Shown here one piece after another: positions 1-54,363 of a DNA stretch of 64,000 bases (its first letter is position 1; each line of letters starts with the position of its first letter). Source of the stretch: Powellomyces hirtus (Eukaryota > Chytridiomycota > Chytridiomycetes > Spizellomycetales > Powellomycetaceae); assembly GCA_025526995.1 (NCBI GenBank), contig JAHLKG010000016.1, positions 620,001 to 684,000 of the forward strand, given 5' to 3'. The notes below the pieces were generated by a model. The model saw nothing but the letters and a program-made list of their open reading frames with translations. It was not told where the DNA came from and did no database searches. A program made the position numbers and the translations under genes.

Positions 1-1940
1 TTTGACGGCACTTATCGCTGTTGGGATGACAACTGTCAAGAAATAGTCATTTCTCGGAATGTAACGTTCAACAAAACCTCAGCACTCAAACTTGTGAAAG
101 ACTACATCCTGCCCGAAGAACTCTACAAAGTCTAATAGATTCTCGACTCACGTGTTGGCCCGGAAGGCCCTGAATTCCTCCGCAAAGGGCTAGGATTGAA
201 AGACGACAAAAATACATGGGAACCAATTGAAAATGTCAACCATTTGACGGTCTTCGCTAATTACATCAACAAGAAGACGGCGAGTGCCCTTTTGGCTGCA
301 AGTATTAAAAAACCCCAACCTACAAACAAGCTTTCTCATCAGACGACGCGCCAAAGTGGACCAAGGCCATAAATGCCAAATTGAAGTCCCTTCATACCAT
401 TGAAACATGGGAAGCCATTAACCCCAAATCCTTACCGCACAATCAACAGCCCATCTGCACCAAATGGGTATTCAAGATTAAGCGAGACCTGAATGGTCAA
501 CCCCAACAATACAAGGCCCGGCTTGTAGTGAAAGGCTTCAAACAACACTATGGCATCGACTACAATGAAACCTACGCTCCGGTTGCCAAGATTGCTACCC
601 AATGCGTCCTCCTCACTCTCGCCACCAGCCTAGGCTTGAAATGCCATCAAATGGATGTAGTAACCGCATTTCTGAATGGGATTGTTACCAAGACCATCCT
701 AATCTATGCCCCTGAAGGCTCTGGCTTTCCGCCCGGGACCATCCTTTGACTCCAAAAGGCCCTTTACGGTCTGAAACAAGCCCCGCGCAAATGGTACTCC
801 CTACTTCACAAAGAACTTACTTCTTTGGGATTCAAGCGCCTGGCAAATGACAATGCCATCTACATCAGAACTCTACCTGAAAGTGACTCATCGCAGTACA
901 TCTCCGTCTACGTTGATGATCTCCTCATTTTCGCACAGACCGAATCGGAAATCTCGTCAATCAAGACATCCCTGCACAACGAGTTCAACATCACAGACCT
1001 AGGCAAAGTCAACCACTACCTAGGAAAGAGAGTTCGACGTGATCACTCAAGGCACGTCATCTATCTCGATCAAGAGTCATATGAAAATGACATCCTTGAG
1101 CGCTTTGGTATGCAAGAGTGCAAGCCCGTCAATACTCCGATGGACCAGACCAAGCTCGAACCCTACAAAGTCGAAAATACAAAGACTTCATCCAACCCGC
1201 AAGAAGGAGAATATTGCGAAATCATTGGTCCTCTCATGTACCTGATGATATGCATGCACCCTGTCATTGCTGTCACTGTCAGTATGCTTTCTTGCTTTGC
1301 AAGCAACCCTTTGCCTCAACATCTGCAAGCTGCAAACCGCGTTCTTTGCTATCTACCAGGGACATCTGCTTACAGTCTCTGCATCGGCGGAAACAATGTT
1401 ACCCTGCATGGCTACAGCGATGCCAATTGGGGAAACAACATCATTGATTGAGGGTCAATCACTGGCTACCTTTTCTACATTGGAAATGCGGGCCCTGTCA
1501 CGTGGGCTTCGAAGAGCCAACCCACCGTTGCTCTCTCATCTACCAAAGCTGAATACATGGCACTTTCCTTCACCACTCAGGAAAGCATCTGGCTTCACTC
1601 ACTTCTGCAAGGACTCCAAATCCCTGAATATCTCAACGAAAATGCTTGACCTCCAACGATCTACAAAGACAATCAGTCATGCATCTTGCTGGCAATGAAT
1701 CCCATGCATCACGCCCGTACCAAGTACATCAACTTTTGACATCACTTCATCCGTGATCACATCGACATGGAGATTCATCTGGAGTACTTATCCACCACTG
1801 AAATGGTCGCTGATTCCCTTACAAAACCCTTACCGGCCCCGGCATTCAAATACCATCACAAAAATATGTGCATCAAGCACTACAATAACACCATCACAAC
1901 AATGACGAAAGCGTCCATGACGAAGCTCCCAAATGAGTAA
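1..1940 (+). pseudogene. copia pol remnant: chromodomain, reverse transcriptase, RNase H
   Basis: A decayed pol frame. A chromodomain remnant lies at about 110-270 and has a TAA inside it. The reverse transcriptase core follows, with the YVDDLLIF catalytic motif near 907-930 and ALYGLKQAPRKW near 760-792. RNase H follows, with a YSDANWG motif near 1411 and a degenerate C-terminal part. In-frame stops include a TGA after GTIL (about 747) and one after NNIID (about 1449). Elements D and C share stops at these points. At a third point where C and D have TGA (near 507), this copy reads CAA. The likely end is TAA at 1938-1940. Confidence 0.85.
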
Positions 1941-5132: not shown

Positions 5133-7731
5133 ATGCCTACTGCAAGATCTCCCATTCAAGGAGTGCAGACCTGCCAACAAGCCCGTCAACCCACATGAGA
5201 AGCCGAACGGGTCCTGACGCTGAAGGAGACGTTAATATCGATGCCTCAACCTACCATGATTCCCACGAAGCAGATGCCGATGTGGATGAGATGAATCCTG
5301 GAGAAATTCATGCAGAACCGGCGACAGAACTGACCGGACCGCAGACTGACAGAGTCATGCATTTTCTGCAGAGGTTCAACAAAGGAATGGACAAAATACT
5401 CGACCATCGGATGGAGAAGTTGGAGAAGACTCTCTTGACTAAGTCAAATCCTCTCGCTACATCACCTTCCCATCAATACGAAAAGTACGAAAACGGAAAT
5501 CCTCACATTGGCGGTTATAACCCACCTACTTCACCAATGAGAATCCTAAAAGCGGCCCCAAAGTACCCTTTTCTACATCAACACATTACTCATGGCGAAG
5601 TTGAAGCCCCAGTTGCCCCTCACTTTGGTCTGTCTTCCCCAATGGAGAGCACTACAACTACAAGCAGCAGAAAGAGCAATGACCGTGAAGCCCAGCGCAC
5701 ATCATTCACATTTTTTCAATCAGCAATTAATGCAGTCATCACATTTGACGGAACGGGAAATCTCTCAAAACTTGTCGACTTCGTTGATCAGATTGAAGTG
5801 GTCTTTCGTCTCAAATCAGTACCTGGAGAAGAACAACTTGCATTCATCTTCACCAAACTCTCTGGCGATGCAAAACAATAGTATTGAAATTACTGCAAAG
5901 AGGCCGAAAAGGGGAATGCTGACTCCATCACAAATTGGCAAACTTTCAAGCGACCATTCCTTCGGCATTATCAACCGACCTATCACAAGGAAGTCCTACT
6001 CACTCAACTAGAAAGATTGCGACAAGGAAGCCACACCATCTCGCAGTACAATACGTCGTTCACGAAAATTACCAGTCAACTCGTCTTGGACATCCCGTTT
6101 CTAGTCTACAAATGGTTCTACCTTCGAGGCATGAACAAACATCAAGCGGAGCTTGTCCGAACCCAAAGTTTTGATGTTCTCGAAGGCCTACAAGCGGCTG
6201 CCAAACGTTTGGACAATGGAAGAAACAAGAGTAACCAAAATAACTGTTCGCGTTCGAAGCCCAACCTTCAAAAAAAGACGGCTCAAGTCACTAGAAGACT
6301 GACACAAAGAAGACCACAGACTTCAAGAAGAGACAGAACTTCCCCTGTTGGTTATGCAATTCGAATGAACATACCCCATTCAATTGTCCCCGCAAAGCCA
6401 AGGCTGTTGAAGCCTTAAAACCCGCTGCTAATGCCAACATTGCAGAAGCACATAACACCACTACATTGGCTTACCTGGATTCGGGCTGCTCACAGCACAT
6501 GACGAATGACATTTCCATTCTCAAATCCTACGAAGAGCACTCAACGTGCGTCAGATTTGGAAACAACGCCTTCTCAATGCCGAAGCGACAGGGAACGCTA
6601 TCTTGAAGCTTCCAGATGGAGATGTACCTCTCACTGATGTTCTCTACGTTCCGAAACTTGCCAAAACTCTCATCTCGGTCTCCGCACTTGCCAAAGATGG
6701 AAAGGGAGTCACCTTTGAAGATGAGAGCGCTGTCATTCAAGACTGCGATGGCACTACAAATGATGTCACCATACCTCTTGTTCGAGGAATGTATCACATC
6801 TTGCCAACTCCGATGGCTTTCGCTACTCAAACTTGCTCAAGGACAAAAGCGTCCAACCTGTCGACAGATGCTACCGGTATCTCAGCCATGCGTTCTACTC
6901 CGACCCAAGCTACGACGGAGGGGCCGGCTGCCCCAAATCGGGGCTGGTCGGCCCCATTGGGGAACGTCGGCCCCGTCCTCACTGAGGAATCCCCCCCCCC
7001 CAGAGCACCGCCCCCTCGGTGCTCTCGGAAAGGAGGGGGGGGGGGGGCGCGCACCCCTGCAGAGGGGGCAGCCAGATTTAGCACTGCCTCCGCTGCTGCT
7101 TTGGCGGCTTCTTCTGGGGCTGGTTCTGGTCCCTTTTCCTCTGTCAACAAAGGAACCCTCTGGCATTACCGATTGGGCCATCCTGGCACTCACATCATGA
7201 AGCAACTCAAGCTCCCAATGACCAACGAAGTCTGCAAAGGTTGTGAGTTTGGTAAGCACAAGCGCTCACCATTCAACGGTACAATGACACGGTCCAAGAC
7301 GCCACTCGATCACCTACATTTTGATCTAAACGGTCTGCACATACCCGCGGTTGGCGATGAGAAATATGCCCTTGTTGTAATCGATGACTATTCACGCTTC
7401 ACATGGATCTTCTTCTTGAAGACAAAGAGCGAATCTACTGCAAAATTGATTGAATTCATCAATTTCATCGAAAAACAGACCAACGAAAGGGTCAGACGAC
7501 TTCATTCCAATCAAGGGGGGGAGTTTGTCAATCACGATCTGAAAGAATTCATTTCGAAAAAGGGCATTCTGCATGAACTCACCGCTGCAGATTCCCCACA
7601 GTCCAACAGTGTAGCTGAAAGGTTCAACCTGACCCTGTTTAACACCATTCGTTCATTGGAACACTCATACGGCATCCTGAAACAACTCTGGACCAAGTTA
7701 GCGGCTACATCAGTCTACTTGCGGAATCGCC
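5133..7731 (+). pseudogene. copia gag-pol of element C, left part
   Basis: Gag from ATG 5133 through the aspartic protease (YLDSGCSQHM near 6472-6500), a GC-rich linker (about 6900-7140) and the integrase (HYRLGHPGTHIMK zinc region, then the D and D residues of the catalytic core, then VAERFN with the E near 7615). A TAG stop at 5879 and indels near 5900-6000, 6250 and 6560 break the frame. The sequence is interrupted at 7731 by element D, in the integrase segment VYLRNRL, and resumes at 13493. Confidence 0.88.
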
Positions 7732-8096
7732 TATTGGAGATATTGGCACTTCCAGTACTTTATTGGAATTGCAGAGGATTGGCCGAATTCGATGTGGCCT
7801 CCAGTATACTTCGTAAAGGGGGTTTACAGAGCCCTTCTGTGATGCAGATGACGATGTAGCGTTGTCAGATGCACGGAGATGTAATGTATGTGAATGTATT
7901 TTTGTCTTAAAGTCTTATCGGTAATGTTTCGCTTCGAGCGTTCTAATCTACTTTTTCTCCAATCACGAGATCACACGTGATCCAATTCAGCTCTTAGCGT
8001 TACCGGTATGGCGGTCACGCGTTCTAGTCGGAGAATCCAAGTAAGGATCTAATGTGAGGACCAAACGTTGAGTACGCAAGTCTCAACATTCCAATA
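7732..8096 (-). repeat. 3' LTR of element D
   Basis: 365 bp, the downstream LTR of the - strand element. On the element's strand it is preceded by the polypurine tract GGACAGGGGGTG (complement at 8097-8108). One of its two CACGTG sites is mutated. Confidence 0.92.
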
Positions 8097-8135
8097 CACC
8101 CCCTGTCCGAGCAATCGATCCGCGATGATGGGATT

Positions 8136-11100
8136 TTACTCATTCGGGAGCTCCGTCATGGACGCTTTCGTCATTGGCGTGATGGTGTTATCGTAGTGCT
8201 TGATGCACATGTTTTCGCGATGGTGCTTGAATGCCGGGGCCGGTAAGGGCTTCGTAAGTGAGTCGGCAACCATCTCAGCGGTAGGCAAGTACTCCAGATG
8301 AATCTCCTTGTCGACGTGATCACGAATGAAGTGATGTCGAATGTTGATGTGCTTGGTACGGGCGTGATGCACGGGATTCATTGCCAGCGAGATGCATGAA
8401 TGATTATCTTCGTAGATCGTTGTGGGTCGAGCATTTTCATCGAGATATTCGGGGATTTGGAGTTCTTGCAGAAGTGAGCAAAGCCAGATTGTTTCTTGAG
8501 TGGTGAAGGAAAGTGCCATATATTCAGCTTTGGTAGATGAGCAAGCAACGGTGGGTTGGCGCTTCGAAGCCCAAGTAACGGGGCCCGCATTTCCAATGTA
8601 GAAAAGGTAGCCAGTGATTGACCATCAATCAATGATATTGTTTCCCCAATCGGCATCGCTGTAGCCGTGAAGGGTAACGTTGTTTCCGCCGATGCAGAGG
8701 CTGTAATCTGAGGTTCCCCGTAGGTAGCGAAGAACGCGCTTTGCAGCTTGCAGATGTTGAGGCAAAGGGTTGCTTGCAAAGCGAGAAAGCATACTGACCG
8801 CGACAGCGATGTCAGGACGCGTGCATATCATCAGGTACATGAGAGAACCAATGATTTCGCAATATTCTCCTTCTTGCGGGTTGGATGAAGTCTTTGTATT
8901 TTCGACTTCGTAGGGTTCGAGCTTGGTCTGGTCCATCGGAGTGTTGACGGGCTTGCAATCTTGCATACCAAAGCGCTCGAGAATGTCATTTACATATGAC
9001 TCTTGATTGAGGTAGATGACGTGCCTTGAGTAATCGCGTCCAACTCTCATTCCAAGGTAGTGGTTGACTTCGCCTAGGTCTGTCATGTTGAACTCGTTGT
9101 GCAGGGATGTCTTGATTGATGAGATTTCCGATTCGGTCTTTGCGAAAATGAGGAGATCGTCGACGTAGACGGAGATGTACTGCGATGAGTCACTTTCAGG
9201 TAGAGTTCTGATGTAAACGGCATTGTCATTTGCCAGGCGCTTGAATCCCAAGGAGGTCAGTTCCTTGTGAAGTAGGGAGTACCATTTGCGCGGGGCTTGT
9301 TTCAGACCGTATAGGGCCTTTCGGAGTCAAAGGATGGTCCCGGGCGGAAAGCCAGAGCCTTCAGGGGCATAGATTAGGATGGTCTTGGTAACAATCCCAT
9401 TCAGGAATGCGGTTACTACATCCATTTGATGGCATTTCAAGCCTAGGCTGGCGGCGAGAGCGAGGAGGACGCGTTGGGTAGCAATCTTGGCAACCGGAGC
9501 GTAGGTTTCGTTGTAGTTGATACCGTAGCGTTGTTCGAAGCCTTTCACTACAAGCCGGGCCTTGTATCATTGAGGTTGACCATTCAGGTGTCGCTTAATC
9601 TTGAATACCCATTTGGTGTGGATGGGCCGTTCATTGTGCGGTAAGGATTTAGGGTTAATGACTTTCCACGTTTCATTGGTATGAAGGGACTTCAACTCGG
9701 CATTTATGGCCTCGGTCAACTTTGGTGCATCATCTGATGAGAGTGCTTGTTTGTAGGTTTGGGGTTCTTCAGTACTTGCAGCTGAAAGAGCAATTGCCAT
9801 CTTCTCATTGATGTACTCTGCAAAGACTGTCAAATGATTGACATTTTTGATTGGTTCCCATGTGTTATCTTCGTCTTCGAATCCTAGCCATTTGCAGAGG
9901 AATTCGGGGCCTTCCGGGCCATCACGTGAGTCGAGAATCTCTTCGACTTCGTAGAGTTCTTCGGGCGGGATGTAGTCTTTCGCTAGTTCGAGTGCTGAGG
10001 TTTCGTTGAACGTTACATCGCGAGAAATGACTATTTCTTGACAGTTGTCATCCCAACAGCGATAAGTGCCGTCAAATTCATAACTGATGAATTTCATATG
10101 TGTGGCGCGCGGTGCCAACTTCAAAACTTGTTTTCTCTTGACGAGATGCACGAAGGCATTGGCCCAAATCACACAAAGGTGAGAAAGTGAGGGCTCTTCG
10201 CCGTTGAGCCGTTCGTACGGTGAAATGTTGTTATTGGACTTGTGGGGTAGGCGATTCCGTAAGTAGACTGATGTAGCCGCTAACTCGGTCCAGAGTTGTT
10301 TCGGGATGCCGTATGAGTGTTCCAATGAACAAATGGTGTCGAACAGAGTGAGGTTGAACCTTTCAGCTACACTGTTGGACTGTGGGGAATCTGCAGCGGT
10401 GAGTTCGTGCAGAATGCCCTTTTTCGAAACGAATTCTTTCAGATCGTGATTGACAAACTCCCCCCCTCGATCGGAATGAAGTCGTCTGACCCTTTCGTTG
10501 GTCTGTTTTTCGATGAAATTGATGAATTCAATCAATTTTGCAGTAGATTCGCTCTTCGTCTTCAAGAAGAAGATCCATGTGAAGCGGGAATAGTCATCGA
10601 TCACAACGAGGGCATATTTCTCATCGCCAACCGCGGGTATGTGCGGACCGTTTAGGTCGAAATGTAGGTGATCGAGTGGCGTCTTGGACCGTGTCATCGT
10701 ACCGTTGAATGGTGAGCGCTTGTGCTTACCAAACTCGCAAGCTTTGCAGACTTTGTTGGTCATTGGGAGCTTGAGTTGCTTCATGATGTGAGTGCCAGGA
10801 TGGCCCAATCGGTGATGCCAGAGGGTTCCTTCGTTGACAGGAGAGAAGGGACCAGAACAAGCCCCAGAAGAAGCCGCCGAAGCAGCAGCGGCGGTGGCGG
10901 CGCCATCGGCGGATGGTGCCCCCGAGGGGGCACCATCCTCAGCATCATCCGATGCTTTTGGGGCGGCCGGCCCCCCACCACAGCACCCACAACTCTCACT
11001 CTCCAGTGGGGGGCTGGCCAGCCCCAAATTGGGGCGGCCAGCCCCCTCACTCTCCAGTATGGGGCCGGCTGGCCCCCCATTCGGGGCGGCCGGCCCCTCC

Positions 11101-13010
11101 GACGTGGCTTGGAGCAGGGTAGAACACGTGACCACCATAGCGGTATCGTCTGTCAACAGGTTGAGCGCTTGAATCGATGTATCGTCTGCGTGTGTCGGTA
11201 CATTGGACGCGTTTGTCCATTTTGTCAATTTGGTAGATGTATTTTTCGACGCGTGTGTTGGTACATTGGACGTGTTTGTCCTTGAGCGAGTTTGAGTAGC
11301 AAAAGCCATCGGAGTTGGCGAGATGTGATACATTCCTCGAACGAGAGGTATGGAGATGTCATTCGTAGTGCCATTGCAGTCTTGAATGACGGCGCTCTGA
11401 TCTTCAAAGGTGACCCTCTTTCCATCTTTGGCGAGAGCGGAGACCGAGATGAGAGTTTTGGCAAGTTTCGGGATGTAGAGAACATCAGTGAGAGGTACAT
11501 CTCCATCTGGAAGCTTCAAGATAGCATTCCCTTTCGCTTTGGCATCAAGAAAGGCGTTGTTTCCAAATCTGACGCGCATTGAGTGCTCTTCATAGGATTC
11601 GAGAATGGAAATGTCATTTGTCATGTGCTGTGAGCAGCCCAAATCCAGGTAAGCCAATGTAGTGGCGTTATGTGCTTCTGCAATGTTGGCATTAGCAGTG
11701 GGTTTTAAGGCTTCGACTGCCTTGGCTTTGAGGGGACAATTGAATGGGGTATGTTCATTCGAATTGCATAACCAACAGGGGAAGTTCTGTCTCTTCTTCG
11801 AGTCTGTGGTCTTCTTTGCGTCGGTCTTCTTGTGACTTGAGCCGTCTTTCTTTGAAGGTTGGGCTTCGAGCGCGATGTTTTCGCTCTTCTTGGCGAAACG
11901 GTTGTTTTGGTTACTCTTGTTACTTCCGTTATCCAGACGCTTGGCAGCTGCCATGAGGCCATGGAGATCCTTGAAACTTTGAGTTCTGACGAGCTCTGCA
12001 TGATGTTCATTCATTCCGCGAAGGTAAAACCACTTGTAGATTTCGAACGGCACCTTCAAGGGGATTTGACTTGTGATCTTCGTGAATGAGGTATTGTACT
12101 GCGAGATGGAATGACTTCCTTGTCGGAGTCTTTCAAGTTGAGTGAGCAAAGTTTCTTCGTGATTGCTTGGTTGGTAACGCGAGAGGAAGGGAGGCTTGAA
12201 GGATTCCCAATCCGTGATGGGCTCCACCATCCCTTGTTCGGCATCTTTCTGATGATTACGATACCATTGTTTTGCTTCGCCAGAGAGCTTCGTGAAGATG
12301 AATGAGAGTTGTTCTTCTTCAGATACAGGTTTTAGGCGAAAGACTAGAGTAAGCTGATCAATGAAGTCGGCAAGTTTTGAGAGATTTCCCGTCCCGTCGA
12401 ATGTAGATACTGCATCGATCGCAGATTTGAAGTACGCGAATGATGAACGTTGTGCGTCGCGATCATCGCTCTTTCTGCTGCTCGTAGTTGTTGTGCTCTC
12501 CGTTGGGGAATACGGACGAAAGTGAGGGGCAACTGGGGCTTCAACTTCGCCGTGAGTAATGTGTTGATGTAGAAAAGGGTACTCAAGGCCCGCTTTTGGG
12601 CTTCTCATCGGTGAAACAGCCATAGGATGACCACCGATATGAGGGTTTTCGTACTTCTCGGGTTGTTGATGGGAAGTTGATGTAGCGAGAGGGTTTGAAC
12701 TAGTCAATAAAGTCCTCTCCAACCTGTCCATCCAATGGTCGAGCTTTTCGTCGATTTCCATCTTGAACCTCTGCAGAATTTGCATGACAATGTCAGTCGG
12801 TACTTCGGACGGTACTATCGCCGAGTCTGCATGAATTTCCCCATGATTCATCTCATCCACATCGGCATCTGCGTCGTGGGAACCATGGTAGATCGAGGCA
12901 TTGTTATTAACATCTTCTTCAGCGTCAGGACCCCGTTGGGCTTCTTGTGTGGCTTGACGGGCTTGTTGGCGGGTCTGCACTCCTTGAATGGGAGATCTTG
13001 CAGTAGGCAT
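8136..13010 (-). pseudogene. gag-pol polyprotein of copia element D with three in-frame TGA codons
   Basis: One frame of 1625 codons from ATG 13010 to TAA 8136, broken only by TGA at 9567-9569, 9327-9329 and 8625-8627. Domains by approximate residue: Gag 1-400; zinc knuckle CX2CX4HX4C at 411; aspartic protease at 455, where the active site reads D-L-G instead of D-S-G; a GC-rich Pro/Gly/Ala linker 620-720; integrase HHCC at 729 and DDE core 775-885; chromodomain 1013-1065; reverse transcriptase with YVDDLLIF near 1281; RNase H from about 1450 with YSDADWG. The chromodomain is unusual for copia elements. The copy is probably inactive through the TGA codons and the protease change. Confidence 0.92.
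9810..9965 (-). other. chromodomain segment within copia pol
   Basis: Encodes YEVEEILDSRDG, then FLCKWLGF, then NTWEPIKNVNHL: the classical chromodomain pattern of an aromatic residue, E-x-IL, a KW-x-G core and a WEP motif. It lies after the integrase C-terminal region and before the reverse transcriptase, and is also present in elements A (broken) and C (about 13790-13950). In chromoviruses (Ty3/gypsy) such a domain steers integration to modified histones; the same role here is an inference. Confidence 0.8.
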
Positions 13011-13111
13011 CTTGACGGTGTGCTCGGTACTTTCTTGGCACTTGAATTTCGACGGAAGACTTGTAGTTTACAGGTTTTACGAAGGGAGAATGATTCGAAT
13101 TCGACCGGTCT

Positions 13112-13125
13112 CAGGGCTCATAACC
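13112..13125 (-). other. primer-binding site of element D
   Basis: CAGGGCTCATAACC on the + strand lies directly beside the 5' LTR end. It equals the anticodon arm of initiator tRNA-Met, identical to the site in element C. Confidence 0.8.
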
Positions 13126-13491
13126 TATTGGAGATATCGGCACTTCCAGTACTTTATCGGAATTGCAGAGGATTGGTCGAATTCGATGTGGCCTCCAGTA
13201 TACTTCGTAAAGGGGGGTTTACAGAGCTCTTCTGTGATGCAGATGACCATGTAGCGTTGTCAGATGCACGGAGATGTAATGTATGTGAATGTATTTTTGT
13301 CTTAAAGTCTTATCGGTAATGTTTTGCTTCGAGCGTTCTAATCTACTTTTTCTCCAATCACGTGATCACACGTGATCCAATTCAGCTTTTAGCGTTACCG
13401 GTATGACGGTCACGCGTTCTAGTCGGAGAATCCAAGTAAGGATCTAATGTGAGGACCAAACGTTGAGTACGCAAGTCTCAACAATCCAATA
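13126..13491 (-). repeat. 5' LTR of element D
   Basis: 366 bp, bounded by TATTGGA (13126) and TCCAATA (13485-13491) on the + strand. It has both CACGTG sites (13359-13364 and 13369-13374). Confidence 0.92.
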
Positions 13492-13492
13492 A

Positions 13493-15447
13493 CGCCTACC
13501 ACACAAGTCCAATAACAACATCTCACCGTACGAAAGGCTTAACGGCAAAGAGCCCTCACTTTCTTATCTTCGTGTGATTTGGGCCGATGCCTTTGTGCAT
13601 CTTGTCAAGAGAAAACAAGCCTGGAAGTTGGCACAGCGCGCCACACGTCTCAAACTCATCAGCTACAAATTTGACGGCGCTTACCACTGTTGGGATGATG
13701 ACCATCAAGAAATAGTCATTTCTCGTGATGTAACGTTCGACAAAAACTCAGCACTCAAACTCGCAAAAGACTACATCCCGCCCAAAGAACTCTACAAAGT
13801 CAAAGAGATTCTCGACTCACGTGATGGCCCGGAAGGCCCCGAATTCCTCTGCAAATGGCTAGGATTCGAAGACGAAGATAATACATGGGAACCGCTCGAA
13901 AATGTCAATCATTTGACAGTCTTCGCTGACTACATCAACGAGAAGACGGCGATCGCTCTCTCGGCTGCAAGTACCGAAGAACCCCAAACCTACAAACAAG
14001 CGCTCTCATCAGACGACGTGCCGAAGTGGACCAAGGCCATAAATGCCGAATTGAAGTCCCTTCATACCAATGAAACATGGGAAGTCATTAACCCCAAATC
14101 CTTACCGCACAATCAACGGCCCATCTGCACCAAATGGGTATTCAAGATCAAGCAAGACCTGAATGGTCAACCCCAATGATACAAGGCCCGGCTTGTAGTG
14201 AAAGGCTTCGAACAACGCTACGGCATCGACTACAACGAAACCTACGCTCCGGTTGCCAAGATTGCTACCCAACGCGTCCTTCTCGCTCTTGCCGCCAGTC
14301 TAGGCTTGAAATGCCATCAAATGGATGTAGTAACCGCATTCCTGAATGGGATTGTTACCGAGACCATCCTAATCTATGCCCCTGAAGGCTCTGGCTTTCC
14401 GCCTGGGACCATCCTTCGACTCCAAAAGGCCCTTTACGGTCTGAAACAAGCCCCGCGCAAATGGTACTCCCTACTTCACAAAGAACTTACTTCTTTGGGA
14501 TTCAAGCGCCTGGCAAATGACAATGCCGTCTACATCAGAACTCTACCTGAAAGTGACTCATCACAGTACATCTCCGTCTACGTTGACGATCTCCTCATTT
14601 TTGCACAGACCGAATCGGAAATCTCGTCAATCAAGACATCCCTGCACAACGAGTTCAACATCACAGACCTAGGCAAAGTCAACCACTACCTTCGAATGAG
14701 AGTTGGACGCGATTACTCAAGGCACGTCATCTACCTCAATCAAGAGTCATATGTAAATGACATTCTCAAGCGCTTTGGTATGCAAGATTGCAAGCCCGTC
14801 AACACTCCGATGGACCAGACCAAGCTCGAACCCTACAAAGTCGAAAATACAAAGACTTCATCCAACCCGCAAGAAGGAGAATATTGCGAAATCATTGGTC
14901 CTCTCATGTACCTGATGATATGCATGCACCCTGTCATTGCTGTCACTGTCAGTATACTTTCTTGCTTTGCAAGCAACCCTTTGCCTCAACATCTGCAAGC
15001 TGCAAACCGCGTTCTTTGCTATCTACCAGGGACATCTGTGTACAGTCTCTGCATCGGCGGAAACAATGTTACCCTGCATGGCTACAGCGATGCCAATTGG
15101 GGAAACAACATTATTGATTGAGGGTCAATCACTGGCTACCTTTTCTACATTGGAAATGCGGGCCCTGTCACGTGGGCTTCGAAGAGCCAACCCACCGTTG
15201 CTTGCTCATCTACCAAAGCTGAATATATGGCACTTTCCTTCACCACTCAAGAAACAATCTGGCTTTGCTCACTTCTGCAAGAACTCCAAATCCCCGAATA
15301 TCTCGATGAAAATGCTCGACCCACAACGATCTACGAAGATAATCATTCATGCATCTCGCTGGCAATGAATCCCGTGCATCACGCCCGTACCAAGCACATC
15401 AACATTCGACATCACTTCATTCGTGATCACGTCGACAAGGAGATTCA
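13493..15447 (+). pseudogene. copia pol of element C, right part
   Basis: This continues the integrase of element C after the insertion of D. It holds the integrase C-terminal region, a chromodomain (about 13790-13950), the reverse transcriptase (ALYGLKQAPRKW, YVDDLLIF near 14580) and RNase H (YSDANWG near 15085). It has a TGA near 14177 and one near 15119, but keeps the arginine codon CGA at 14417 where A and D have TGA. RNase H stops abruptly at about 15447, where the sequence jumps into a late part of an LTR, so about 0.6 kb including the polypurine tract has been deleted. Confidence 0.88.
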
Positions 15448-20272: not shown

Positions 20273-23200
20273 TCACCGACCAGCAACGCCCATTTCTTGC
20301 TGATCCCCGTGGTCGAGCTCCTTGTTTGCGGCGGAGGAGGTGAGGCCAACGCTTTCTTCATGCAGGATGTCAGTATCTCGGGGAAAAATGTGGCGGAAGA
20401 AGCTGATAGGCATTTCGAAACCGAGGTGAGGATTGCAGCTAGAGACAAACGACAAATAGAAATTATACTTACTATTTGATAAACAAAGCCCCGCCAGAAC
20501 ATGTGGCGACCACGAGCACCGTCACGGTCTGAGGGTAAGGTTCGTTAGGGAAATATCTATCTAGCACGGTATGCACGCGTGGGCGAAGACAAGCTGTACG
20601 TACCCAGAATCCGGTCAATACGTGTACACTTTCAAAGGTACCTTCGTCAACCCATTTGAATAACTCGACAATTCCCATGACGATGAGGTTCGCAACCAAA
20701 CTGAGAACGAGCACGCCGGCTGTAATGCAAGCTCCGCGACCAACCCATACGACGTGCATCATTCCGGCACGGATCAACACGACGATCAGCATTGGTGTTG
20801 AGAAAAGATAGGTTTGCGTATAATATCCAGCGGTATATCCTCCGGGATCCAATGTGTTGTCGTGAAAAGGAATATAGACGAAGTAGAATATCAGCGAAGC
20901 CGTGATGAAGGCTTCAAACAACGTTCGAAACATTCGCGTTCGTGACCAGTACAGGCTATTTGATAAGAACGTAGGGCGAGGGAGCGCGAAAGGTCAGAGA
21001 ATATCCAAGCGGCAGCCGGGAATGTCAGTCATAGCTCACCCTTTGCGAATCGCTTTGTAAAGTTGTGGATGTTCAAGAAGAACGTCTGGTCGGCAATCAT
21101 AGTCAAACACGGCAATAAACAATGGCGGCAACGAAGTGAAGACAATGTTGTAACCAGTCAGAAAGATTTCCTCGTACACCAACTACAAGTTGACAGCAGG
21201 ACCGCAAGCGTCAGCCATTAGCACAAGGTGCATATCGACCCAAGTCATGGCAGCTTACCGAACCACTCCACGCACACTGAAAGCCAAACCACCACTGCAC
21301 GGTGATCATGACCAAGTTCTTGTAAAACGAGTAGAAGACCAGACTCGAAAGCCGCAGACTGAAAATCAAACACCATGAGATCTTAGTACCTTCAAAGAAC
21401 ACGACTGCGCAACGCTACCGGCTCCATCTTCCGTGAACAGTTAGCAATCTCGCCAAATGTCGAAACTCGCCAATGGCATAGTCTGCCGCTCTTACAGCTT
21501 GAGTTCCCTCGCGACCGACGACACCGACACCAACATTAGCGGCTTGAATCATGCTAACATCATTAGCGCCATCCCCAATCGCTAGTGTTGTACATTTCAG
21601 GTTCCGCTGAACGAGCTGAACAACGAGGGCCTTCTGTAAAGGTGTTACACGACAAGCGATCACTGTCGTACAGAGTTGCGAAAGGGTCAGGAGCAGTGGT
21701 GGCAAGTGAGGATGGTCTGAGGAGAAAATCGTTGCGAGCGTTGAGCCCGGAATAATAAGGGCAGCGCGTTTGTAATTGGAGGAAGACGGTGAGAGTTGCT
21801 GCGTGAAGGAGTCGACTTGATGAGCAAGATCTTGCTCACTGAGTGCGTCCAGAATGAGAACGGACATGTCTGGGAGGATGAGTCGGGATGACATCCCGAT
21901 GTTAATTGCAGTTTCCATCTTGTCCCCTGTAAGAAGCCAAACTTTGATGCCGCAATCAACTAAGAATTCTATTGTTTCTGGAACGCGGTCTTGCAATCGA
22001 TCTTCGATCGCAGTGACTCCCAGGAACCGCAAATTCTTTTCAATCTCCTCAGACACAGCGGCAATGGATTCCTCGCGATTTGTCAATGCCCGTTCCGCCT
22101 CATCCAACTTCCCTCGAAAGTCCTCATATTCCTCGTCCGTGAGCGTGCGGTAAGCTACAACCAGCGTGCGATATCCCTGCTCACTGTAATGCTTAAGTGA
22201 AGCGTCGGCATGGTGGACGAGATCCGCTTGGTCGGCGGCTAAGCGCTCCAAAACGATGTTATCCGCGCCTTTACAGTATAAAGTGAGAACTCCGTCTGGA
22301 GCCCGTACGATTATTGACATCCTTTTCCTATCAGAGGTGAAATCGAGGAGCGCGAGTTGGCCGAATTCGAGAGGGTTGGCATTGGTGCCAGTTGATGTGG
22401 GATCCGTTATCTTTATGGCGGCTTTGGTTCGGGATAGTAATGTGAACCCGTCTGTCTTGATGCCAAACAGGAGTGCGGACTCGTCGGGCGACTGCGATTC
22501 ATACAAAAGCTCGCCGGGAATGCGTGGATCCGGCGCCGGGATGACATTGTGACACAGTGCTAGGGCATGACCAAAGGCAATTATACGCTGCTTCGTTTCT
22601 TCATCGACGGAATTCTCAGTGACCAACCGTCCCAGCTTGCCCGCGCCATCAGCGATCCCTGCTGGTACATTCCCTATCCCGTCGAGGTACCATCCCACGA
22701 CCTTCATCTCGTTGCGCGTAACAGTACCGGTTTTGTCCGAAAAAACGTACTCCACAACTCCCAAATCTTCATTCAGGTTGGAATTATTGGCTTTCGATTT
22801 CACGGTGGTGATGGTTCCGTCGGAGTTGGTCATGTATGAACGCATGTTGAGGTCCCACTGAATGTACTTGGCTTGCACAACGCGGACGATTTCTATAGTG
22901 ACAAATAGGGAGATCGGAATCACGTACGTGTAAAGCGCAAAGAAAGAGATAATGGTGTTCAAAACATGCTGCATCAGGGACAAAGAAGAAGGGAAAATTG
23001 AGCTCAACAGCACCCCCAATGACAAGGATCCAATGAGTAGTCACGAGCAACAAGCTTACCCGACTCGGCTGATCATCCACGGGCCCAAGGTACCAGAGAA
23101 CGGGGTAATTCACAGGGTCTGTTGCAATGGCAACGCGCTCGCGATCATAGATGTTCTTGTAAAACCTCCATTCGAGAGACACGCTGCTAATCAAGAAGAT

Positions 23201-46138: not shown

Positions 46139-49100
46139 TCAGAGGTTGAACGGCACCTCGGACGCGGCGGCGGCGGCTGCAACCGTCGTCGTGACCGTGT
46201 GGGTAACCGAGACGATCGTGGTTGTGGTCGTGGTGGTGGTTGCGGTGCGGCACACGGGACAGGGTGGACAAAAGACCTGCGGACACGCGGGTGACGCTGC
46301 TGGTGGTGGTGGTGATGGTGGTGGTGGGGGTGGTTGTGCAGTCGGCATTGGGGTAGCTGCGCGGTTGGCCAGATTCGCCGCGGGTGGGTTGGGGCGTGCT
46401 AGCCCCCCGTTGACCCCCGGACCGACGAGAAACAGCTGCAGGGCGTATCCCAGCGCAAAGGCCAGGACGCCACACACGACGAGGAGGGAGAGCGGGTACG
46501 TGGGGCTGCTGGGAGGCGCTCTCAACCGGGTCCAGAACCCCTGTCCGCGGGTATGCGTGGTGGTGGTGGAGGCGGCGGCGGGGGGGAGCCGTTCGGCGGG
46601 CTTGAACAGGGGCGGCGTTTCCATGTCGCGATGGGACGACCCCGGGGGTGTGCGACGCGTCGTCGGCCCCGATATGAGCGATGGACTGTGGTGGTCGGAC
46701 GCCAGAACCGCGCCAGAGGACGACGACCGCCGCTGGGCGAGGCTTGTTCCAAAGGAATGGGCAAGGCCACTCTGGGCGCCGAGATGGGCTTTGGCACCGC
46801 CGGTGGACGTCGTAACCGGCATGCTAGACACTCGCGCACCGTGCTGGTAGTGGAGCGGTAAGGGGGGAAGTGACAGGTCAGATTGGCTGCCCTCCCGTTC
46901 CCAGTTCAGTACCTCCGTTAATGATACCCTACCTTGAGTTCACCAGCAGCATCTGTCCCAGGTCGCCTCCTATTCCAAAGTCCCGCCGTATTGAAGATAC
47001 TAGGCGTAGACTGGCCGGTTGTTTGCGTGACAAACTGTCCCGGACCCGGTGGCAGATGCTGCCCAGGTGGAGCTAGCGAGACCATACTGGAGCGATTTGA
47101 GCTCAGCGACAACCGACTGAAAAAAAAACAAAAAAAAACGCACATCATCAAATCAATGGTGTCCCAATCAAATAAGGGCGTTGTTTGTCAATTCAGAAAA
47201 CCGCCTACCTCATTCTCTTCTTGAGCCGTTCCCGCTGCAGAGCTCTCGAGTCGGCCAGCTGGTACATTACGACCTCGACCCGCTTCCCATTGACAGACAC
47301 CAGGCTGCTGGCATTCTCGCCGCCCACTGCGGCCGACCACAAGCCCGGCACACCCCCACTTTTCGGCGTCGCTGGGGTGATCCGGATAACGCTCGAAAAC
47401 TCGGTTCCTGTGATATCTGACTCTTCCAGCGACGCGTCTCGGCTGATGCCGTGTCGAGGCAAGTACACCTTCAGACTGTGTTTCAAGACCGTGTTCTTTG
47501 ATTTGGCGCGAGATGGAGTAGAAGCCCTCTGCCGCGTCGTCAGCCCGCGGTCGCCTGCGAGTGCTCTACCGTCGGATTCGGCGCCGCTATCTGATCCGGT
47601 GTGGACTGCCCTTGCGCCAGCCGTGCTGGACTGCCCATCCGTGGCAGAGGCAGGGAAATGCGTTGCCGAATGGGTAGGTGGCGGTGGAATTTCAACAAGC
47701 TCTATCCTCAGGTCCAGGCCTTCCCCAAATTTAGTGCCGTTGACACTTTGACTGCTTTCCCACGTTACATCATATCCGAGCCGATATCGTGACATGTCCA
47801 GTATGATGTGCATAAGCAGAACGTCTTCCTCCTCATCCTCATCGGACGACAGCGGTGGGTCAAGCTCGATCTCAAATGGTTCCGTTCCGGGTCGGGTGGT
47901 CGTCGATGAGCCGTGGAGAGCCCGTTTCTTGGCCGCCAGATCTTCCGCATAGATATTGAACTCTGTCACAAAGTAATTCTTGGCATGGTCGAATTCTTGG
48001 CGCAGAACCCGAATATCTCTGCTTTGGACTCCATCGACCTCGGCACCCTCTTCCTCGGGGTCGGTTTTGGTGATCCCCGGCCACGCGACGTAGGGCGGTA
48101 CGCCGTGCTCCTTCAAATACGCTTCGACACGAGCAGGATGTTTCGGGGCATTTCCGACCAAGAATCCATACAGCGATGTCGGAATAGAACCCCCGAGATC
48201 GGCTTGGTAGTAGAAAGTAGCTTTGGTTGATGGAATCGGATGCTGCTGAGCCGTATACGGATCGATAGGCTCCAGGAGCCAGCCTGATAGGAGAAGGTTT
48301 CCACGTACGTTGGTTTCACGGGCAATGCTGGACAGCGCCTCCGAAGACAGCAGGGTCTCTGACACGCTGGACGCGGCAGTGACAATCGTCGGCGGCCCAT
48401 TGTTGGACGAGCTCAAGATCTCATCTTTGCCAATCGCCACCAGGTCCCGGCGGCTCATGGGAAAAAAGCTCTGGAGAGTGATATACGAGACGTCGACTCC
48501 TTCGCCACAGTATTCAAGGCGGCGGCCATTCTCCAAGAGGTCATCCCACATCTTCCGGCAGCCGAATGCCTTGATGACTGCAAACACTTCTTGCGAAGAA
48601 AACCCTTCAATAACCTTCACCCCTTTCATCATGGGAAAGCCGGAAGTGGACACGGTCCGTTTATGCACCGTCAACCCAGAACGGAGGGATGTGACCAGCG
48701 TCCAATTGTCAGAAGTGCTGTTGATTTTCATCATCTTCCCAACGGCTGATTTGGCGGAATGCTTCAGTTCCCTCAGTCGTTCCCCTTCGGAAGCTTTCCG
48801 CGGGGTGCGCGGTGCAGCGCCCTTGACCCCTTTTGAAGAGTCGTCTGCAGGAAGGGACATTGGCCGAGTCGCATCTCTCTCGTTCAACATGACTGCGGAT
48901 GCAGAAAGTCGCCCGGAAGGTGATTCCCAACCTTGACTATGATCAGGTGTGCCGGCTGGCGATTGTGAGCGGGGCGTGGGTATGCTGATGGGCAAAGAGC
49001 CAATCAAAAGATTTGATCCAGAACGACTGAACGAGTCTGGGTCAAAGTCCACGTGGCCTTCATCCACCTCACGAGATACACCATTCACCACAATGCCCTC

Positions 49101-51648
49101 CCCCCTTGCGCCTTTGGAGACCCGCAGCTCAATGTCTGATTGGGAGGCAATGATGCGGATGAGGAGTGCAGAATCCCCGTACGTCTGATTTCTCAGCAGT
49201 TTGACAGACTGAGAAGCCCCGATATCCACATCCCCAGAACACCATTTCTCCAAGTCGATGCGCACATCCAGGGCTTGAAAAGTGCCCATCTTGTGTTCTT
49301 CTGATCGCGGCATGGCGGCTAGTTGGAAAGTCCCGGAACCGTGGTCGTATTCTTTTCGGACGATTCGATATCTTTCGGGGCAGCGGACTATGTATGGCGG
49401 AGCACCAAACTCTTTCACATGAGTGTAGACGGCATTCACTGCGAGCGGCAACTGCGTCGAGACTGCATTGAGGAGAGAAGACGGGATCCATCCTCTGGGA
49501 TTGAATTGCATGATGTGTGTGACTCTAATCTCCCCGTGAGGAAGACACTCAATGTCCCATCCGGCAATGTCCACGTGCGCGCGCACGTTCCCGTTTTTGA
49601 CTCCCGGTAACGCATCGTCGTTCTCCACTGAATTTACGATTGACTGTATTCGTGAATCGTTGTCAGTAATCAAGGTGCTGACTACCGTTGCGTCCCTTGC
49701 ACTGTTTTTCGGCGATGTTGGTCAGCGTCAGCGATGGCAGTTGCACGATTGTGAAGTACCACCGATTTGGCAACGAACCTGACCTTGTTGGCCACACGGC
49801 TTTATTCATCGCGTGCACGAGGAATGATGTTGGACATAGATGTTCAATCAACGTATCATTCTCGAAATTCGCATCCCCTGGGGAGAAGCGTCAGATCTAA
49901 TTGACGAAAGCGCCCCCCCCTTCTGTTCAACAAGCTGCCCTTACATATTTTGCGGACGCCCGCAGTCTGAATAACGGCCAGCACGTCCCACATGAGCCCT
50001 TGACTTCCCGCATACACGCCGACGCCTTTCAAAATCCCAACGGGATGATCCAAGACTTCTTTGTGGAAAATCGCGATGCTCTTTTGCGAGGAGACATGTC
50101 TGAAGGTGGTATCTGACAGCAGACAATTGAACAAATTGAAACCTTTCGCGACTGCAGTTATGAATCGATGCTCATATAGTCGAAGGCTAATTCCGGGTGT
50201 GACAGATGCCTGCATCTTCACGTGTTCTTTGGTAAAGGATATCCCTCCAGAAGGAGTGGATCGTTGTTCATCAATCATGGGTGTATCCCGGATTTCAGCG
50301 GTTAAGGCTGATGCCGAATCCACCGAGTCCAGCAGTCTCCCATTTATCCAAATGCCCGCCTGGTCAGAGACTTCAATTTTCATGGTGAAAACCTCGTGCT
50401 TTCGGTCCATATCAAATACACAGGCGATCTTCAGTCCGTTCTCTACGTCTGGTGTGACTTCAACGAGACTCTCTACATCCGAATCATGTTCCGCTCGATC
50501 TGATTCAAGGTAAATTCGGAGTCCCTTACCCGGCTTCAGCCATCTCTTGCTATCCAGACGGACTTCGACCATTGGGGCAGGGGTCGCGCTTCCCGTTGAA
50601 AAGATCGAAACCGTAGATTCTCCCAACTGGCCAATCTCATCTTCTTCCGGCGGCGGAGGTTCAATTTCCCATTGTAACTCATAAGTCAAGGAGTCATGAT
50701 TGTAGGTTTCATTTCTGATGATTATCGACTGTGCAAAATTCAATAGATACGGCGCGAACCCTTGCTTTCTCAGAATCGCTGAAGCGCCCAGGATTGTCCT
50801 TGGTATCTTGTTGACCGCCAGCAGATCGGCGCCTTCCTTTTCTTCGGTCTTCAGCAAAACAGTCACGCGCAGCCCATCAAAATCAGCTGCCCTCTCAACC
50901 ACAAAGGCAAGTAGATGAAGTTTCGAGCGCTTGCATGGTTGCGCTGCTGTCGTGGCGGCAGGGGATGCGGCTGCCGGTGGGACGGAGGTAGATATGGAAA
51001 CAAAGGTGGTTGAGGTAGCAACGGTCTGTGTGATGACGATAAAGTCATTGGAACTGCATGTGCGTGCCATGAGACATTGACAAGCATTGGCAATAAAATG
51101 GCTCTACTGCACGCCTTACACTGATGTCACTTTGGAAGATGAAGTTCGCAGGTGTTGCAGAGACGTCCGCGCATCGATGCGTTCAATCACCTTGACTTGA
51201 TCAAAGATGCAATCTCCTGAGTTGCACGACTGGACGTTGAGTTGGGGGAGACATCTCTACTAGCACGAGTTTAAGAATGGCAACGAGACTTACTGTTTCC
51301 GCAGGAAGCTTCACCAAGCACGGCCCCAAAATTTCTCGGTTTCAGCGCGATGCCGGTGTTTCCGTCCGGTACGCGAGCGACAATCTTGAAGCAGGTGGAA
51401 GAGGCAGCGCGACGATATACTCTCAACGCTTTTGCGTCGTCGGAGCGGTCAGGAGCGTCATAGGGGCAGGCTTCCCAGTCGGAGGCGGAACTCAGAGACC
51501 GATACTGCTCATGTGCGCGCAAAAGCAGGTCGGGAAACGCGTGGGCTGGAGTTGTGTTGGCGAGAGAGTTGTGGCCGGCGGCCATTGGAAGTGCGCGTAT
51601 CGGTTTGAGAGGGTTAGTGAGTCCTGTATGCTTGTTCGTTGTGTACAT
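46139..51648 (-). CDS. Triple-START-domain, C-terminally membrane-anchored protein
   Basis: Seven exons: 51294-51648, 51120-51216, 49945-51053, 49784-49877, 47209-49701, 46933-47116, 46139-46843. All joins are in frame, giving 1678 residues. START domains form a pocket for sterols or phospholipids. Approximate layout: START 1 at 30-330 (WEACPYDAPDRSD, VRVYRR-like strand, FVVERAADFDGLRV); START 2 at 430-700 (GLMWDVLAVIQTAGVRKIWD, LIEHLCPTSFLVHAMNKAVW, WDIECLPHGEIRVTHIMQFN); a beta-rich segment at 720-830; START 3 at 860-1130 (FGCRKMWDDLLENGR, YITLQSFFPMSRRDLVAIGK). Then a Ser/Pro-rich region and one membrane helix at about 1558-1583 (LLVVCGVLAFALGYALQLFL), followed by a Pro- and Thr-rich tail. 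An inferred role is lipid transfer or sensing at a membrane. The Thr/Ala tail encoded by GGT repeats is low complexity. Confidence 0.87.
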
Positions 51649-51999: not shown

Positions 52000-54363
52000 A
52001 TGAGCAGCGAGACGCCACGTACCCTTGCGGGTTCCACCTCCGCCTCCCCCAACACCGCCGGTCCACTGCCCGTGCATAGACCGTTACCAACGCCCCTCGA
52101 TGCGAAATATCGCAAGCACCTCGATGCACAGAGAAGACCGTCCGCATCCTCCCCGGCCGGTAACGCAGCAGGTTCTGCTCGGCCCATGACTCCGACTCAC
52201 CAACTCGCAGAGACGGCAGTTGGTGTGAGAGAAGCGGCAAAATGCATAGGTGAGGGGAGGTAGCGATGAAGCGACATCGGAAGCAGAATGGAGGGGAAAC
52301 GGGAAGGATAGTGGAGTTCTTGCGGAACGTGGCGACGGCATTATCATCTGTCGGGCGATGTGTGCAGTTTCTTGCACGAGCGTGAGCGCGGAAGAGAGAA
52401 GCCGGAAGGAGTGGAATGGAGAAACCCCTGCGGCGGGAAGGGGCTCTCGCTGGGCTTAAGCGAGACCTTTCTTGTCTCTGTTGGCGAGACGCAAGGACCT
52501 GACGCTTTCCACCTCTCTCATACTCACAGACCTTTCCATTCCTGTTCTTCAATACACATTGTAGGTCGCGCATTAGTCAAGTTGGAGCGACCGAGCACGG
52601 TCATGATCGTCGCGAAGGCATTTGACGCAAAGATTGTAAAGTTCACCCGGCAGCTCGCATGCCATCTGATCGATACTCCGCGCGCATCTTGCGGTCTCCC
52701 GGGATTGATAGTGTGCGTTCCATCGTGTTGCGTCCAGCTGGCCACGATTGATTAGCATGATCACTAATTTGTCCGTGGTTCTACAACCAGTTACATTGAT
52801 GCAAAGTTCCGCACCCATCCTGCGTTCAACCTTTCAAATCTGCTGGCGCGATACCCACATTACGAGCCGCGACTTCGGTTCTGGACGCCACAAGTGTGCG
52901 CGACGCAGACTGAACAGCTAGACTTTATCGTTACGCTGGGCGGTGACGGAACCGTCATCTACACATCTTGGCTGTTCCAGACGGCTCAAGTGCCGCCCGT
53001 CATCGCTTTCGACCTCGGCTCTCTAGGGTTTTTGACAAACTTTAACATTGCCGACATTAGAAGCGTCCTGAAGAGAGTGATTGGCTGCAGAGGAGACGGT
53101 GTCCGAGTGAATCTGAGAATGCGATTGAGCTGTACCGTCTGGAAATGGGTCGATGGTCCCGTTGGGGGCGGGGGCACGGGATCCTCGCCCGCCCGCGAGG
53201 GGGACGAAAGTCCTAGCTCTACCGTTGCTTCGGTCCGACGCGCACTCTCGGGTCTCCAGCTCGCAAACATGACAAAACTCCCCGGTTTCTCGTTCGAAGA
53301 GCTGGATCACCTCACCTCTCCGCCCACCCCGAATCCGCGTGTGGGCACCAACGACGAACAGCTCGAAATCGGATCGTTACTGGATGAATTGTCGTCGACG
53401 TTGGCGTCCAAAGCTGATCCGGACGAACTGGATGAAGGAGTGGGACCGAACATAAGTTATAGGCGCGCTGCCTCGTTTCAGAATCTTGACAGCGCTGGCA
53501 CGTCGACGGCGCACGGTGCGTCGCGACAGACAAAACAGGAGCAACCGCTGGACCATCATCACCACCCTGTGGACACATTCCAAATCCTCAACGATCTCGT
53601 TGTGGACCGCGGCCCAAGCGCTTACATGTCGCAACTGGAACTCTATGTCGATGACAGACATCTCACCACCGTGCAAGCTGACGGATTAGTGTTGAGCACG
53701 CCAACGGGATCCACCGCTTATTCTGTATGTACAGTATGTCCCTTTCGCGCGTCGGCTGCGCACGTGACCTCTACACAGCCTTCTTACATGTCGTTCCATC
53801 TTGTCTTTTTCTCACAGCTTTCAGCGGGTGGCTCCTTGGTTCATCCAGAAGTGCCGTCCGTGCTGATAACTCCCATCTGCCCGCATACCCTCTCCTTCCG
53901 GCCCATGCTTCTTCCTGACAGCGTGGTTATCCGCGTCCAAGTGCCGCGCGATTCGCGCACGTCGGCTTACGCTAGTTTCGACGGTCGCCACCGTATCGAA
54001 CTTCAGAAGGGTGATTGCATCACCGTCGAAATGTCGCGCTGGCCAGTGCCACAGGTATGTCGCGACGACCAAGGTGTCGACTGGGTGGCGTCCCTCCGAC
54101 GATGCCTGTACTGGAACGAACGCGCTGCCAGACAGGGCGCCTTTGACGGGATCGGAAAGGGTAACTTGGAGAGTGTAGGGAGAGGATTGGATACGGCGCC
54201 TCAGGACAGTGATGATGACGTTTCGGAAATGATGCATACCAAGGACAGAGCTGCCGTGAATCCCTTGAACGGTGATCTGATACATGATGATGATGAAGTA
54301 CAGTCTATTACATACACTCGCTGCGCTTGTGGCACTGATTGTGGCACTACACGCGTATCATAG
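52000..54363 (+). CDS. NAD kinase
   Basis: Exons 52000-52249, 52565-52712, 52791-53724 and 53818-54363, giving 625 residues. NAD kinase phosphorylates NAD(H) to NADP(H) with ATP. Seen: the catalytic GGDGT motif (FIVTLGGDGTVIYTSWLF), FDLGSLGFLTNF, the NE/D-like substrate region (NDLVVDRGPSAYMSQLELYV), the glycine-rich TPTGSTAYSLSAGGS loop formed across intron 3, and PICPHTLSFRPMLLPD. A low-complexity insert at about residues 240-340 separates the two halves, as in some fungal Utr1-like enzymes. Intron 3 (93 nt) is stop-free and in frame. The gene ends 54 bp from the NADH pyrophosphatase on the opposite strand. Confidence 0.95.

Follow-up and report, generated by a model that had tools for sequence, protein, structure and literature searches.

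We describe here a defective Ty1/copia retrotransposon, D, together with its relatives elsewhere in the same genome. D lies in a 64,000-nucleotide stretch of genomic DNA (the window, meaning the whole stretch that was analyzed), belongs to a family designated F1, and spans positions 7732 to 13491 on the minus strand (5.76 kb), as delimited by an aligned long terminal repeat (LTR) pair, domain matches, and a broken frame. Its 5′ LTR (13126 to 13491, minus strand, TATTGG...CCAATA) and 3′ LTR (7732 to 8096, minus strand) are identical at 355 of 365 aligned bases, with 2 additional gap columns. The LTRs of D and of a second F1 locus (L024) begin with TATTGG, and those within the window end with CCAATA; the usual LTR start is TG. 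A probable 5-bp target-site duplication, with ACGCC at 13492 to 13496 and TCGCC at 7727 to 7731, differs between its two sides by one mismatch. Immediately after the 5′ LTR lies a likely primer-binding site, GGTTATGAGCCC (13114 to 13125, minus strand), which would pair with initiator tRNA-Met at its anticodon arm; half-tRNA priming is that of Drosophila copia, and the site in D looks alike. The open frame of D (9567 to 13067, minus strand) stops at 9567, and the reverse transcriptase (RT) and RNase H resume in another frame that holds one more stop. D sits within copy C, a member of its own family that reaches 7731 and resumes at 13492, an instance of the nesting described in the original prediction for this DNA. 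Host genes outside the repeats include a P-type ATPase of the phospholipid type (21415 to 23040, minus strand), a START-domain protein (47205 to 49721, minus strand), and an NAD kinase (52768 to 54363, plus strand).

The open frame of D encodes, in order, Ty3_capsid/Retrotrans_gag, a gag capsid of the Ty3/gypsy type (PF19259 and PF03732; 11937 to 12422; E values of 6e-19 and 1.8e-14); Pol_BBD (PF22936; 11421 to 11651; 1.8e-17); gag_pre-integrase (PF13976; 10722 to 10841; 1.9e-8); the integrase core, rve (PF00665; 10383 to 10679; 1.3e-13); the SH3-like C-terminal domain of the integrase, SH3_retrovirus (PF25597; 9996 to 10202; 2.3e-16); and Chromo (PF00385; 9816 to 9953), all on the minus strand. 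RVT_2 follows, mostly in the other frame, with part of the copia RT (PF07727) matched at 8934 to 9326 on the minus strand (5.4e-29). With the integrase domains before Chromo and RVT_2 after it, this is a copia-type pol whose integrase is followed by the chromodomain. A spacer rich in Gly, Ala, Pro, and Ser, whose length varies between copies, precedes gag_pre-integrase in F1 (about 10840 to 11110 in the window, minus strand, and also in L024).

The original prediction had placed a chromodomain just after the integrase in D and in copies A and C and had named a profile search and a structural model as checks. The placement was borne out, with the domain reading on the minus strand and stops interrupting the plus-strand reading. 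Against the Pfam cut-off of 25.1 bits for PF00385, hmmscan gave 46.1 bits in the open frame (E value of 4.7e-12; residues 1039 to 1079, about 9831 to 9953), a 138-residue piece gave 50.2 bits, and a genome-wide profile search recovered the domain at 9816 to 9953 with 51.8 bits. The top phmmer matches in PDB were HP1-type chromodomains, including chromobox homolog 1 (1ap0; 2.4e-10). Copy C, interrupted by D, retains the SH3 tail, the chromodomain (about 13793 to 13945), and the linker at 13637 to 14173 on the plus strand, in a piece that is 91% identical to that of D and has no stop. The equivalent piece of copy A (1 to 503, plus strand; chromodomain at about 124 to 276) has internal stops.

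The structural check also agreed. An 81-residue model of the domain (pLDDT 83.8) has strands at residues 12 to 21, 24 to 31, and 40 to 43 and a helix at 51 to 69, giving the three strands and C-terminal helix of the chromodomain topology; a longer model of the integrase tail plus chromodomain had a pLDDT of 55 and was not used. The best 50 of 379 Foldseek matches were chromodomains, many of them with H3K9me3 (CBX1, 6d07; Rhino, 4quf; Chp1, 2rsn), and 12 matches had E values of 0.001 or lower. For comparison within the family, 47 F1 copies were assembled from 40 fetched places, L024, L025, L031, L032, and window copies A, C, and D; the sample leans toward intact copies, since the fetched places were picked among stop-free matches. 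Seven were excluded where the match was broken or missed an end, and all 40 of the remaining gap-free pieces keep the aromatic-cage residues Y, W, and F. The corresponding residues in F2, F3, and F4, three further families introduced below, are Y, W, and Y. Group I retrotransposon chromodomains are characterized by three aromatic cage residues (Y24, W45, and Y48 in HP1) in excerpts of PMC3350952, and those of F1 to F4 match group I in having all three. Among F1 copies, pN/pS is 0.29 in the chromodomain, 0.38 before it, and 0.20 after it. Judged from the model and these residues, the F1 chromodomain looks functional and is predicted to bind methylated H3K9.

Four copia families in this genome carry SH3_retrovirus, then Chromo, then RVT_2: F1 (window and L024), F2 (L010 and L011), F3 (L029 and L088), and F4 (L086). 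Their Chromo matches score 46.8 bits in L024, 62.5 in L010, 38.7 in L029, and 33.6 in L086. The integrase precedes an RVT_2-type RT, which is the Ty1/copia order; in L024, rve is at 810 to 904 and RVT_2 at 1140 to 1387. Membership in the chromoviruses is ruled out by this order and by an RT of the RVT_2 rather than the RVT_1 type. Two other F1 copies are single open frames of 1,652 and 1,657 amino acids. One full-frame copy has LTRs identical at 363 of 364 bases, which indicates that F1 moved recently. Together the four families occupy at least 216 places in the genome, a count that may be a little inflated because some small contigs, C38 and C39 among them, possibly duplicate larger ones. A search with an F1 piece, in which the best 150 of 660 candidates were assessed, gave at least 123 F1 and 11 F3 places once 16 fragments or second halves had been set aside; in the total of 216, the F2 to F4 places come from one set of matches, with one F3 place added from the F1 search and four matches left unassigned. 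Contigs C38 and C16, C39 and C23, C48 and C12, and C31 and C7 pairwise show the same match scores and partly the same spacing and are possibly duplicated or haplotype contigs. Viral contigs searched with the F1 piece yielded no relative.

In a fifth copia family, CopA (L030), no chromodomain matched, and the gag is that of PF14223. Copia elements usually have this gag; the superfamily is not defined by gag type. In all four chromodomain families, the gag instead matches PF03732 and PF19259, the Ty3/gypsy type, and PF14223 is absent from their matches. Five of the six gag pairs among F1 to F4 match each other, with E values of 2e-22 to 9e-11; the F2-F4 pair gave no match. Compared with the gag of a gypsy family, G1, those of F3 (about 1e-10) and F4 (about 1e-7) match, and those of F1 (0.009) and F2 (0.4) barely do so. 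The CopA gag matches those of F1, F3, and F4 no better than at 0.003.

The chromodomains of the four families probably do not form one group. The F2 domain is 49% identical to a host HP1-like domain and 27 to 33% identical to the domains of F1, F3, and F4; F2 (L010) and the host HP1-like gene (L083) have a 14-residue run, IKWKGYPSSDNTWE, in common, and at the DNA level they share 51 of 66 bases in the core motif. A tree of 12 domains pairs F2 with HP1 (92/92) and F4 with gypsy families G3 and G4 (97/93), of which the G3 domain scores 19.2 bits, under the cut-off of 25.1, and that of G4 (L094) was recognized by eye and has no Pfam match. Common descent of the four copia chromodomains was rejected, with a p-AU of 0.006 for an F1 to F4 clade, on 50-residue rows that have little signal and with a constraint group that was named once the identities were known; a group of F1, F3, and F4 was not rejected (p-AU of 0.105). 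The RTs of the five copia families are about equidistant (36 to 45% identity, with the row F1_L025 left out), and an RT tree did not resolve the families. These sequence comparisons suggest that gypsy elements, copia elements, and the host HP1 likely exchanged chromodomains, as opposed to descent of the domains from a single ancestor, and that the F2 domain was possibly captured from the host HP1-like gene. Host reader and writer places above cut-offs comprise two chromoshadow matches, one of which adjoins an intron-split chromodomain (HP1-like), and one Pre-SET match, which adjoins a stretch that by eye is SET-like. Two gypsy families with an integrase chromodomain of the chromovirus kind (L015 and L026) were examined in this genome, and two further gypsy families (L093 and L094) have at the integrase end a weak (19.2 bits) or by-eye chromodomain-like stretch.

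CopA places were defined as RVT_2 matches above 230 bits (133 of the best 150 of 630 candidates), with family identity read in L030, L025, L013, and L014, and a CopA block was defined as three or more CopA places in succession, spaced no more than 30 kb apart. Sixteen blocks of 19 to 85 kb were found, one each on 16 of 60 contigs (C1, C3, C5 to C8, C12, C13, C16 to C18, C22, C25, C26, C28, and C35), totaling 727 kb or 2.5% of the genome. Among the matches listed, 114 of 133 CopA places fall in blocks and 19 lie outside, including a second pair on C7. With one block per contig, the blocks are candidate centromere cores. The repeat-rich end of the window (1 to 15.7 kb) sits in the flank on the outer side of the C16 block, which runs from 513 to 599 kb on a contig where the window starts at 620 kb.

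Places of F1 to F4 (at least 216) are distributed with 7 inside CopA blocks, 63 within 60 kb of one, and 146 elsewhere. The 60-kb flanks make up at most 6.6% of the genome, and the four families are 4.4 times commoner there than expected by length. Their share inside the blocks (7 of 216) is about that of random placement and the flank density is over three times higher, so the strong contrast is between blocks and flanks only. Across 24 mixed clusters, the label changes between CopA and F1 to F4 numbered 41, compared with 97.5 ± 5.9 after shuffling (0 of 20,000 shuffles as low), and such shuffles overstate the evidence because adjacent copies may stem from a single event by duplication. When F1 is restricted to its 60 top-scoring matches, the split from CopA persists at linking distances of 60 and 100 kb (1 of 5,000), and at 30 kb it weakens (50 of 5,000). 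In control comparisons, F1 and F4 are freely intermixed (51 changes versus 44.1 ± 3.5 expected), as do F1 to F4 and 84 other chromodomain matches (87 versus 88.0 ± 4.8), the latter drawn from 150 matches that comprise 52 F1, 9 F2, 5 host, and 84 other. These 84 are themselves split from CopA (20 changes versus 39.8; 0 of 5,000), and none lies in a block.

Gypsy elements behave similarly. Among 150 scored RVT_1 matches, 149 lie outside CopA blocks, and 83 lack a listed chromodomain within 4 kb. Those 83, one of which is inside a block, are split from CopA (20 changes versus 32.7 expected; 0 of 5,000) and mix with F1 to F4 (73 versus 72.2). Of two that were examined in detail, one has a Chromo match that is weak and below the cut-off and the other has none, so the blocks may be avoided even without a chromodomain. 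CopA is the sole copia family seen that lacks the domain, and since it is the only such contrast and gypsies avoid the blocks too, the split is no proof that the chromodomain is its cause. The split marks CopA as special; the chromodomain as cause is one reading.

We consider it reasonably likely that the HP1-type chromodomain behind this Ty1/copia integrase, a predicted reader of H3K9 methylation, tethers the integration complex to heterochromatin. The domain of F1 to F4 would bind H3K9-methylated histones, a predicted activity as regards both binding and specificity, and, once bound, would hold the complex at heterochromatin and so may steer integration. The genomic positions of F1 to F4 are compatible with such steering, and the host has candidate reader and writer genes. 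New copies would then land among existing repeats, their own family included, as D did in C. A broader and rather doubtful extension of this reading is that the genome hosts a guild of copia-gypsy mosaics with a copia pol, a gypsy gag, and interchangeable chromodomains drawn from gypsies and host HP1. Elements with a chromodomain would fill the heterochromatin that flanks centromeres, CopA without one would fill the core, and the domains would act as exchangeable address labels that determine how the centromere is laid out.

The spatial split could instead come from CopA alone, which would have its own route to, or survival in, centromere cores, with everything else going elsewhere, chromodomain or not. 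We regard this as somewhat less than an even prospect. It accounts for the confinement of 114 of 133 CopA places to 16 blocks, one per contig, and for the near absence from blocks (1 of 83) of gypsy RT matches that have no listed chromodomain; it leaves the function of the chromodomain aside, however, and with it the 4.4-fold excess of F1 to F4 within 60 kb of blocks (63 of 216). Less probable, and in our judgment unlikely, is that the chromodomain is kept and folded with no role in site choice and that the clusters are what remains after purging from gene-rich DNA. Selection against insertions in genes can also yield clustering, and gypsy and copia elements do occupy the same clusters (87 changes versus 88.0; 73 versus 72.2). 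Such purging would sit poorly with a domain that is under constraint (pN/pS of 0.29) and has an invariant cage, and CopA, exposed to the same purging, occupies different blocks.

Heterochromatic tethering by an element chromodomain, as we favor for F1 to F4, has a fungal precedent in the gypsy element MAGGY, whose chromodomain binds H3K9me2/3 and targets heterochromatin according to an excerpt of PMC3350952, citing Gao 2008. The original prediction left undecided whether a chromodomain on a copia integrase had already been described. The combination itself is known from diatoms, where excerpts of PMC2774666 and PMC5348765 describe copia integrases with a chromodomain in CoDi-A and CoDi-I, respectively, and the consulted portion of a 2024 article (PMC11541908) gives CoDi-like elements as the copia case. 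It would be possible to regard F1 to F4 as CoDi-A sensu stricto, inherited or transferred from the lineage known in diatoms, a reading that we think quite improbable. Both have the chromodomain at the C-terminus of the copia integrase (PMC2774666, in part), a likeness drawn from the described architecture alone. One clade for the F1 to F4 chromodomains was rejected, however, and that of F2 groups with host HP1; the domains here are likely of more than one origin. The Ty3/gypsy-type gag is stated here for F1 to F4 only. The host in the present case is likely a fungus, unlike that of CoDi-A; the best matches of its New1/eEF3-type protein and Chd1, two genes only, are yeast-type proteins. An assembly or annotation artifact or a chance match can be set aside as the source of the fusion, given scores of 46 to 52 bits, the matching model, 40 of 47 F1 copies gap-free over the piece, and two single frames of 1,652 and 1,657 amino acids.

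Several other systems resemble parts of this arrangement. Ty3/gypsy chromoviruses (MAGGY, Tcn1, and group I) share with F1 to F4 an integrase chromodomain, three cage residues, and the gag type; in F1 to F4, by contrast, the integrase precedes an RVT_2 RT and the chromodomain is inside the polyprotein rather than at its end. HP1 and chromobox proteins share the fold and cage, with the F2 domain closest to the host HP1-like one, whereas F1 to F4 have no chromoshadow domain and their chromodomain is part of a retrotransposon polyprotein. Chronos of oomycetes and ECR-1 of Ectocarpus represent separate chromodomain gains on an LTR integrase in the available text of PMC5348765 and PMC11541908, and both are Ty3/gypsy elements, unlike F1 to F4. 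The centromeric copia element of Ganoderma, with LTR GlCEN427, is confined to predicted centromeres, as CopA would be; GAG, INT, RT, and RH and no chromodomain are listed for it in the section of PMC10817607 consulted, so its counterpart is CopA and not F1 to F4.

A survey of fungi (PMC3248453, in excerpt) places chromodomains in gypsy elements, and no fungal copia with a chromodomain was found in the open-license literature, itself searched in part, which is weak evidence of novelty. As far as searched, what is new is the likely fungal host, the presence of four families, the signs of chromodomain exchange, and the spatial split. If the favored reading is true, a copia integrase gained a histone reader outside diatoms, and did so more than once, with chromodomains passing between the two great LTR superfamilies and also the host. 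A single genome would then have families that carry the domain alongside others that lack it, and ChIP together with the mapping of insertions could test directly what a retrotransposon chromodomain contributes to site choice, a question of long standing.
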